Shown: positions 9,809-11,882 of the stretch, one piece after another
Layout: each line of letters begins with the position of its first letter
How positions within the stretch are numbered: the stretch's first letter is position 1
NCBI GenBank assembly: GCA_017937065.1
Contig: JAGBEI010000031.1
Span: 186,001-250,000, forward strand
Direction of reading: 5' to 3'
Length of the DNA: 64,000 nt
Origin: Clostridia bacterium
GTDB lineage: Bacteria; Bacillota; Clostridia; Oscillospirales; QAKW01
The notes under the pieces: model-generated
What the model saw: the letters and a program-made list of their open reading frames with translations, nothing else
What the model was told of the DNA's origin: nothing
Databases searched by the model: none
Position numbers and translations under genes: made by a program

Positions 9809-9817
9809 GGTAAAAGT

Positions 9818-10732
9818 ATGAAAAAAATTGATTTTCACGTTCACATCAACAGTCCTATCCCTATAGAAGACACAGTGAAATATTTCAACGATATGTGCAA
9901 ACGCTTCGGGTACTGCGGCGTAGGGATTATGTCAACTATCGCTGCCAGCAGTCACGGAGATGACCCCGAATGCAACAACCGGGCGCTTGAAATCAAGCGA
10001 CTGATGCCCGGTTCATTCGCTTTTGCCTCGCTTGACCACAAGCGTGATTTTATCAGTCAGACGCGGGAATACATGTCATCGGGCTTTGACGGAATTAAAA
10101 TTTTAGAGGGAAAGCCGTCCGTTTACAGATATTACGGTTACGGACTTGACTGTGAGCGGTTTGACCGCTTTTTCGAATATGCACAAGATGAACAGATACC
10201 TATTCTGCTGCACAACTGCGACCCCGAACAAAACTGGGATATATCCCGCGCAGACGAGCGCGCAAAAGAAAAAGGATGGTACTATGACGAGAATATGCCA
10301 AGACAGCAGTATTTTTATCAAGCTTTTGAAAATATACTCTGCAAGTACCCGCAGCTCAGAATAGCGGTAGCTCACATGGGCTTTTACGCCGACAGACTCG
10401 ATATCGCTTCAAGACTTCTTGATAGCTGCCCGAATATGTATTTTGATATCACGCCGGCACTTATAATATACTCTCAGCTGTCAGAAAATAAAGACGCACC
10501 CGAATTTTTCAGAAAATATCAGGACAGACTGATATACGGAACTGACGCCGACAACGGACTTTTCGGATTTGCACGCGAATACAACGACAAAAAGGTGCGT
10601 GTGATAACAGCGTTTTTGGAAAACAGCTCGCCCTGCGTTATTGACGGTATAAAAATAAACCCGATAGCTGCCGGCAATTCGATTTTACAGAAAATATACG
10701 CTCAAAATGCAATGAACTTTCTGTCAAAATAA
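9818..10732 (+). CDS. amidohydrolase family protein (metal-dependent TIM-barrel hydrolase)
   Basis: 304 residues, Amidohydrolase-2-like fold. Metal-binding features are the N-terminal DFHVH, HNCDPE in the middle, VAHMGF at about residue 185-190, and YGTDADNG near 240, in the order used by this family (HxH, His, His, Asp). Family members hydrolyse or decarboxylate small carboxylated or cyclic substrates; the substrate here cannot be read from sequence. The gene follows the AraC regulator by 9 bases with a gaggt Shine-Dalgarno, so the two form one unit. No transporter accompanies them. Confidence 0.8.
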   Translation: MKKIDFHVHINSPIPIEDTVKYFNDMCKRFGYCGVGIMSTIAASSHGDDPECNNRALEIKRLMPGSFAFASLDHKRDFISQTREYMSSGFDGIKILEGKPSVYRYYGYGLDCERFDRFFEYAQDEQIPILLHNCDPEQNWDISRADERAKEKGWYYDENMPRQQYFYQAFENILCKYPQLRIAVAHMGFYADRLDIASRLLDSCPNMYFDITPALIIYSQLSENKDAPEFFRKYQDRLIYGTDADNGLFGFAREYNDKKVRVITAFLENSSPCVIDGIKINPIAAGNSILQKIYAQNAMNFLSK

Positions 10733-10751
10733 AACCGCAAAACATTATTCA

Positions 10752-10911
10752 ATTAAAAAATGCGCAGCCATTGGCTGCGCATGAAAAACACACGCTCTAT
10801 CGCTGCTACACAAAACCTCGGTACATCACATGGTATGTCCAAAGAGAGCATGCATTTTTACCAATTTCACAGACACACATGTGACGTAACCTTATAAAGT
10901 TTTGTGTAGCA
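10752..10911 (-). ncRNA. candidate small RNA, rod-like fold, own promoter and terminator
   Basis: No open reading frame covers this minus-strand transcript of about 155 nt. From a start near 10910 the RNA can fold into one long rod. GCTACACAAAAC (10910-10899) pairs perfectly with GTTTTGTGTAGC (10816-10805). After a small internal loop, GG-TACGTCACATG (10891-10878) pairs with CATGTGATGTACC (10832-10820). TGTGTC (10877-10872) then pairs with GACATA (10839-10834). The 32 nt apex contains the self-complementary GCATGC. A terminator hairpin with six U closes the gene. No known family was recognised; a 6S-like regulatory RNA is possible, but the large central bubble is not evident. Confidence 0.72.
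10755..10782 (-). terminator. terminator of the candidate small RNA
   Basis: Perfect 10 bp stem atgcgcagcc / ggctgcgcat. The T-tract (TTTTTT) is on the minus strand only, so it ends a minus-strand RNA rather than the amidohydrolase transcript. Confidence 0.85.
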
Positions 10912-10916
10912 TACAA

Positions 10917-10945
10917 ATTTTAACACAAAATTACAGAAAAATCAA
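10917..10945 (-). promoter_or_regulatory. promoter of the candidate small RNA
   Basis: On the minus strand: TTGATT (10945-10940), 17 bases, TAAAAT (10922-10917). This is optimal spacing for sigma-A, with a start expected about 6-7 bases downstream. Confidence 0.75.
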
Positions 10946-11018
10946 CATTTTACAGATTTTAGTTAAAAAATTTTTAAAAACATACGGTATTTCCTTAATA
11001 AACATATAAAAATCAAAT

Positions 11019-11048
11019 AAAAAAAGACGGATTTACCGTCTTTTTTTA
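11019..11048 (-). terminator. noc terminator
   Basis: Hairpin aaaaagacgg / ccgtcttttt with loop attta and long A/T flanks, directly downstream of noc. A second short stem-loop (tttcttg / caagaaa, 11050-11073) lies between it and the stop codon. Confidence 0.8.
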
Positions 11049-11087
11049 CTTTCTTGCTTGGGGGAACAAGAAAAAATAATAAGGGGA

Positions 11088-11882
11088 TTAGGATGTTTTG
11101 GGTATCTTGATTATATATTCAACAAACCCTTCCCGGTCTAAAAGCTCGGTCTGGGGCTTGATACCCGACTTTTTAATCAGGTTGACCGCCTTGTTAATAG
11201 TATTTACAAATATACGCATATCTCCGACCTTGCACACCCTCTGCGGTCTCCGGGGAGTTCCTTTTTGCAGCTCTTCAATATACTGCTCGGTCTGAGAGAC
11301 ATTAAGTTTTTTTACTATGATATGGTCAAGCGCGCAGAACAGCTGCTGCTTATCACGAAGTTTTAGCAGCTCGCGCGCGTGGCGTTCGGTAAGATTATTA
11401 GCTATAATCATAACCTGCGCCGTCGGCGGCAGCTTTAACAGCCGCAGCTTATTGGAAACAGTTGACTGCTTTTTTCCAAGCCGCTGAGCAATTTGGGACT
11501 GAGTAAAACCGAATTCGTTTATCAGCCTTTCATAACCCGCAGCCTCTTCAAAAAACGAGAGCTGTTCGCGCTGAATATTTTCTATAAGCGAAATCTCGGC
11601 ACATTCCCGACTGTCACGCTCCAGTATTATTGCAGGAATTTTTTTAATTCCGGCAAGCCTTGATGCACGCAGTCTGCGTTCTCCCGCAACAAGACTGTAC
11701 CCGTCGTCGTTCTTTACCGCAAGCACAGGCTGCAAAACCCCGTGTTCCTTTATCGACGCGGAAAGCTCGGACAGTGCCGCATCCGAAAAAACCTTGCGCG
11801 GCTGATATTTTGACGGCACTATCAAATCTATATCCAGCTCCGTCACCTGTTTATTTTCTGTCTTTGAAAATAAAAACGGCAT
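11088..11882 (-). CDS. noc: nucleoid occlusion protein, ParB/Spo0J family
   Basis: 264-residue ParB-family DNA-binding CTPase. The N-terminal ParB domain has GERRLRASRLAG and ENIQREQLSFFEEA; the helix-turn-helix at about residues 145-170 is TQSQIAQRLGKKQSTVSNKLRLL. The order mnmG-rsmG-this gene, without a parA/soj neighbour, matches noc rather than spo0J. Noc binds scattered sites and keeps the division septum off the nucleoid; the short hydrophobic start MPFLFS could serve as its membrane-touching segment (inference). The start has gagg 8 bases upstream. It has its own promoter in the 94-base gap after rsmG. Confidence 0.82.
   Translation of the reverse strand: MPFLFSKTENKQVTELDIDLIVPSKYQPRKVFSDAALSELSASIKEHGVLQPVLAVKNDDGYSLVAGERRLRASRLAGIKKIPAIILERDSRECAEISLIENIQREQLSFFEEAAGYERLINEFGFTQSQIAQRLGKKQSTVSNKLRLLKLPPTAQVMIIANNLTERHARELLKLRDKQQLFCALDHIIVKKLNVSQTEQYIEELQKGTPRRPQRVCKVGDMRIFVNTINKAVNLIKKSGIKPQTELLDREGFVEYIIKIPKTS

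Follow-up and report, generated by a model that had tools for sequence, protein, structure and literature searches.

Transcriptional riboswitches of Firmicutes are 5′ leaders in which a terminator and an antiterminator exclude each other; they govern regulons of unlinked genes and occur in tandem copies, and c-di-GMP riboswitches control adhesins and lipoproteins in some Clostridia. The RNA family described here, one member of which lies in the 64,000-nucleotide stretch of DNA that we analysed (the window), shares the leader design of these riboswitches, but it matches no known aptamer and its anti-antiterminator is an apical pseudoknot strand (the B:D pairing, below). T-box leaders are likewise multi-copy and choose between terminator and antiterminator, whereas no Rfam T-box match was reported for the window or the homologous loci, and the genes behind our family are neither aminoacyl-tRNA synthetase genes nor otherwise related to amino acids. 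In the EAR (epsC) RNA and LoaP systems of processive antitermination, too, a leader affects terminators upstream of envelope or exopolysaccharide genes; unlike these, the family has no Rfam match and a single adjacent terminator with a dedicated antiterminator. True LoaP, tried as a partner and rejected, exceeds its cut-off in only 2 of the 295 genomes of the order, compared with 103 of 295 for the RNA, and is therefore unlikely as a general partner. 6S RNA (RF00013) is rod-like and of similar size, but this genome carries its 6S gene separately on contig C23 (71.8 bits), and the family has an apical strand switch in place of a central bubble and sits as a gene leader.

The window copy lies in a gap of 355 bases between the stop of an amidohydrolase gene (9818-10732, stop at 10732) and that of noc (minus strand, 11088-11882, stop at 11088). 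A sequence-only reading had proposed a structured RNA with promoter, rod and terminator in this gap, and we confirm one of about 155 nt at 10754-10911 on the minus strand. The same reading had placed it divergent from noc, which is wrong: noc and the RNA are both on the minus strand, with the RNA downstream of noc and behind noc's own terminator-like hairpin (11015-11051, minus strand), and the amidohydrolase gene is convergent with the RNA. Congeners keep that hairpin after noc, with AraC as the immediate next gene. Between 10733 and 11048 we found no plus-strand terminator for the amidohydrolase gene ahead of a bidirectional hairpin at 11018-11048, so the amidohydrolase mRNA could run antisense over the whole RNA.

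The promoter, TTGATT and TAAAAT at a spacing of 17 with a TG before the -10 element, is of sigma-A type and present as proposed at 10945-10917. Taken alone, this match is not above chance (2 found against 2.4 expected), but about 100 homologues have a promoter equally placed with respect to the RNA, with the consensus TTGACA-17-TGnTATAAT. Comparison with homologues puts the transcription start at about 10911, and the RNA ends in the U-run at 10759-10754. Its predicted fold has an energy of -67.5 kcal/mol (z = -7.48), with none of 200 dinucleotide shuffles as good. The basal helix P1 is formed by UGCUACACAAAAC (10899-10911) and GUUUUGUGUAGCA (10804-10816) and has 13 perfect pairs, slightly better than the 12 first claimed; across 100 family sequences, cognate P1 duplexes differ from shuffled ones with z = -22.7. 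A 5′ bulge, AUAA (10892-10895), separates P1 from P2; the family consensus here is AAUA, with AUA near-invariant. In the fold, the P2 5′ arm (10872-10891, its inner part being segment A) and the P2 3′ arm (segment C, 10820-10840) flank the apical strand B, AAAAAUGCAUGCUCU (10845-10859). Segment D in the linker, AGAGCGUGUGUUUUU (10784-10798), is the pseudoknot partner of B and, in the family, the antiterminator strand, degraded in the window copy. A terminator hairpin of 10 bp follows at 10782-10760 (AUGCGCAGCC AAU GGCUGCGCAU), then six T in the DNA, read as six U. The motif GCATGC at the apex belongs to a strand that pairs with the linker. No reading frame explains the element, as had been noted: the longest within it on either strand encodes 45 amino acids and none is convincing.

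At the window locus, cmscan with Rfam gave no match at gathering scores, and only chance matches at permissive E-values. The suggestion that the RNA is 6S-like fails here, with no RF00013 match at 10600-11100 up to E = 10 and the genome's 6S RNA elsewhere. Scans of the homologous loci L010-L012 and L032-L051 likewise returned no Rfam family at the RNA site, and no known riboswitch aptamer class was matched at the RNA in the window or in these loci. No description of the family was found in the literature searched; an unnamed entry may exist in the supplementary tables of PMC8040213, a large structured-RNA survey of the human microbiome. In kind, the RNA is a terminator/antiterminator leader; the family and its pseudoknot-based anti-antiterminator appear new.

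At the DNA level the window RNA is unique in its own genome. A blastn search against 40 relatives gave three matches, one of them shorter and two in which the 3′ half is largely conserved; blastn by itself thus yielded homologues at 72% and 70% identity. The homologues have the full architecture while their arm sequences differ: a TTGACA-like promoter, a UGCGACAC..GUGUCGCA stem, the apex UUGGUAAAAAUGCA, a linker with a UUUUUC end and the terminator GUGCGUAGC..GCUGCGCAC. A covariance model built from four sequences scored 149.5 bits on the window copy, which had itself gone into the model. With this model, matches came from 103 of the 295 genomes examined within the order, spread over 62 of 148 genera (E down to 1.9e-29), and from 84 of the 341 examined within the class, spread over 54 of 203 genera; in a phylum sample of 398 genomes, searched under strict filters and with about a dozen class members visible among the genomes listed, the one positive was the RNA's own genome. 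Copy number reaches 16, in one 1.6-Mb genome. When GTDB species contigs were scanned with an exact pattern, 97 stretches matched; the 80 listed belong to MAGs of Clostridia, Oscillospiraceae, Ruminococcaceae or similar Bacillota, many of which derive from the guts of herbivores. The window RNA belongs to a large, conserved and previously uncatalogued family with compensatory changes, which supports the 'new structured RNA' that the sequence-only reading had offered as one option.

Some loci hold two or three leaders in tandem (L208:1252-1810, which is G140:C48:10251-10809; L129:1204-2047; L067:1376-1855), every one of which has a separate promoter and terminator, and only the last precedes a gene; their arms differ and the pairings are kept. 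Gut-1 RNA (RF01706) lies close to one family member (L034:2217-2292 / L034:2093-2175; 72.5 bits, with a second match below threshold at 40.4), and a weak Gut-1 match (27.8 bits) lies upstream of the leader in L012. Leader-like sequences also occur on the faecal phage records MT835845.1:2060-2234 and MT837627.1:2227-2338 and on the IMG/VR contig L221:28-45. Because similar sequences sit on these few faecal phage and viral contigs, the leader may travel on phages; a phage origin was rejected, the material being just the one IMG/VR contig and the two unannotated records.

Elsewhere the usual order is promoter, RNA, terminator, ribosome-binding site and gene, so that the family, unlike the window copy, lies between a promoter and a gene with its terminator upstream of the ribosome-binding site. 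An open reading frame with a strong ribosome-binding site begins within 60 nt of the terminator in 60 of the 120 copies with enough downstream sequence, and the distance to the gene start peaks sharply at 16-25 nt, with Shine-Dalgarno sequences. Under a looser ribosome-binding-site criterion, which kept 90 distinct downstream reading frames, 25 of 115 copies (about a fifth) lack a gene nearby, and some copies may therefore act in trans. The description as a stand-alone small RNA gene fits only the window copy and some tandem copies; elsewhere the RNA mostly serves as a 5′ leader that carries an attenuator before a protein gene. In the window's own genome, three further copies precede genes, one of them (C8:56611-56772) that of a zinc-ribbon protein at 18 nt, the others those of a membrane protein and a lipoprotein; divergent copies in genomes G140 and G248 are also in leader position.

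Simple heuristics rather than a signal-peptide predictor gave a hydrophobic N-terminus or lipobox, as in secreted, lipo- or membrane proteins, for 61 of the 90 downstream genes, compared with 53 of 260 background reading frames, which were other reading frames of the named loci. Pfam families of the downstream genes include LRR_5 (BspA-type leucine-rich repeat proteins; 15 of 76), AMP-binding (6 of 76) and SLH (3 of 76), among others, and no regulator gene stands out among them. The N-terminal motif (S)IDKPWxKYY marks AMP-binding ligases that are encoded repeatedly downstream of the leader (L031, L044, L079, L126 and L138) and are a candidate core regulon gene. By sequence and statistics, the RNA is a family with a promoter, mutually exclusive pairings, a leader position and a bias in its genes.

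The pairings involve four competing segments: A (5′ arm), B (apex), D (linker) and T (terminator 5′ arm). In 100 sequences, cognate duplexes were compared with shuffled ones, giving z = -11.2 for B:D, -12.6 for A:B and -4.3 for D:T, whereas the control duplexes were null (A:D 0.4, B:T 0.1, A:T 1.0); relatedness of the sequences is ignored in these tests, although the null controls pair the same segments. The tests are alignment-free, which disfavours covariation as an alignment artefact. In ungapped pair tables, seven B:D pairs are present in 94 of 94 sequences and switch among U-A, U-G and C-G; the D:T pairs reach 92-100% at most positions, also with exchanges. In a 65-sequence alignment, pseudoknot and terminator have 14 pairs changed on both sides, a number equalled in 0 of 500 shuffles, and, by every measure used, the two together outscore each of the 500 shuffles as well as all column slides. 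For the antiterminator alone, 1 of 500 shuffles was as good in percentage paired and 2 of 500 in covariation score, and the count of doubly changed pairs was not above shuffles, which makes it, in formal terms, the least secure of the helices; it is supported mainly by the cognate-energy tests. The 15 divergent copies of G140 strengthen it (D:T z = -4.8, with B:D -4.6, A:B -5.8 and controls of -0.3 to 0.2), as in AAUGAGG/CCUCAUU in C45 and GAGGGAA with UUCCUUC in C48. Through D:T the family has an alternative pairing that excludes the terminator. In gene-linked copies the mean helix energies are nearly equal (D:T -16.2, B:D -16.3, A:B -16.1 and terminator -15.6).

Other pairings and products were considered for the same segments. 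A leader peptide was rejected, with no ribosome-binding site and reading frame before the switch in the sequences read, and although D includes GGAGUUAUG, its spacing is too short and the AUG is missing in many copies. A helix between the P1 3′ strand and the terminator 3′ arm seemed feasible on visual inspection of common copies, showed no covariation in variant copies and was given up; only a GCA...UGC extension of this idea is retained, in the ON fold.

We consider it likely that the RNA belongs to a family of cis-acting 5′ leaders, present in multiple copies, through which transcription termination is controlled, with the window copy as an OFF-locked relic or a derived stand-alone RNA. Transcription would start at the conserved UGCGACAC, and a long rod would form from P1, the AAUA bulge and a variable P2. 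The apical strand B (consensus GGUAAAAAUGCAUnCUCU) could then be caught either by the 5′ arm A, as a hairpin, or by the linker D (GGAGUUAUGCAUUUUU), as a pseudoknot. In the OFF state B would hold D, the terminator GUGCGUAGC-UUCG-GCUGCGCAC would form and transcription would end. In the ON state B would remain with A, and D would instead bind the 5′ arm of the terminator together with its loop (GGAGUUAUGCA with UGCGUAGCUUC); this antiterminator would prevent the terminator, allowing the downstream gene to be transcribed. We infer this direction of the switch, and its bias by some signal, whether a small molecule or a protein.

The window copy has departed from this design. Neither a gene nor a ribosome-binding site lies behind its terminator, in which AAU replaces the usual UUCG loop. 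The alternative pairing is essentially lost: the antiterminator, at -7.1 kcal/mol, is the weakest of 116 (gene-linked mean -16.2), and A:B is weak as well (-6.5), while B:D has 15 continuous pairs (-19.1 kcal/mol). In forced folds, computed with no pseudoknot entropy penalty, the difference ON minus OFF is +21.5 kcal/mol, the most OFF-biased of 116 copies (mean +7.5), and on these models the copy looks stuck in the off position. In the congeners G001 and G003, AraC comes immediately after the noc terminator, RNA and amidohydrolase gene are missing from that site, and no family copy was detectable in either genome. The block of RNA and amidohydrolase gene (window 9810-10940) is thus absent from their noc locus, a lineage-specific insertion or deletion. 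Because gene and antiterminator have been lost and G001 and G003 lack the RNA, the window copy reads, by its sequence, as a lineage-specific, gene-less, OFF-locked derivative, and it is probably either a relic or a derived stand-alone RNA. It would terminate constitutively and release an RNA of about 155 nt.

What the leader responds to can be read in more than one way. It may be a riboswitch for a metabolite or second messenger, a reading we hold tentatively, in which P1, the AAUA bulge and the rod form the aptamer and the ligand sets B with A or with D; a single global ligand would then govern the surface proteome, in analogy to the c-di-GMP riboswitches. The attenuator design found in many transcriptional riboswitches, the conserved unpaired AUA, a diverse and mostly envelope-related regulon, up to 16 copies per genome and the exclusion of LoaP-type antitermination as general partner all favour it, but few unpaired positions beyond the switching strands are strictly conserved, P1 differs in sequence among copies of one genome, and no ligand-specific gene association is seen. 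As a conjecture of the same standing, the family could be a new riboswitch class with its apical pseudoknot strand as anti-antiterminator, in which one signal controls as many as 16 unlinked genes per genome in gut Clostridia, most of them for surface proteins, and gene-less copies such as the window's serve as decoys or released small RNAs. Somewhat less probable is a response to an RNA-binding protein or transcription factor (an antitermination protein, or NusA/NusG-dependent pausing) rather than to a small molecule. The conserved P1, the linker sequence and the extended -10 promoter would suit a protein partner, but LoaP is as rare as noted above and no regulator gene is prominent among the downstream families.

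The remaining alternatives concern the window copy or the element as such. It is unlikely that the window copy works as a small RNA in trans or in antisense, with other transcripts or the amidohydrolase mRNA (at its 3′ end) as targets: an intact promoter, a perfect 15-bp B:D, a strong terminator, the absence of a gene behind it and gene-less tandem copies elsewhere would fit, but the remaining copies in its own genome are leaders, and no orthologue is conserved behind noc in congeners, so that selection on this copy is not demonstrable. A 6S RNA or second 6S paralogue, suggested by the rod shape, the length of about 155 nt and the dedicated promoter and terminator, can practically be dismissed, since there is no match at the locus, the real 6S lies elsewhere, and homologues precede protein genes and carry an antiterminator. 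Just as implausible is a chance fold, a mobile repeat (MITE) or a composition artefact, despite a long inverted repeat with conserved ends: the window sequence is single-copy in the genome, on which a mobile repeat was rejected, arms vary among copies while pairing is maintained, and promoter and ribosome-binding site stand at fixed distances.

A family of terminator/antiterminator leaders of this kind would be a large, uncatalogued gene-control family in a substantial share of class Clostridia genomes, many of them from animal guts. It precedes secreted lipoproteins, BspA-type leucine-rich repeat proteins and AMP-binding ligases, accounts for a group of leaders before genes of unknown function, and offers a clear-cut model of a switch in which three helices compete. 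In gut Clostridia the leaders probably decide whether secreted and surface protein genes are on or off, and identifying the signal would show what these hard-to-culture bacteria sense while remodelling their surface.
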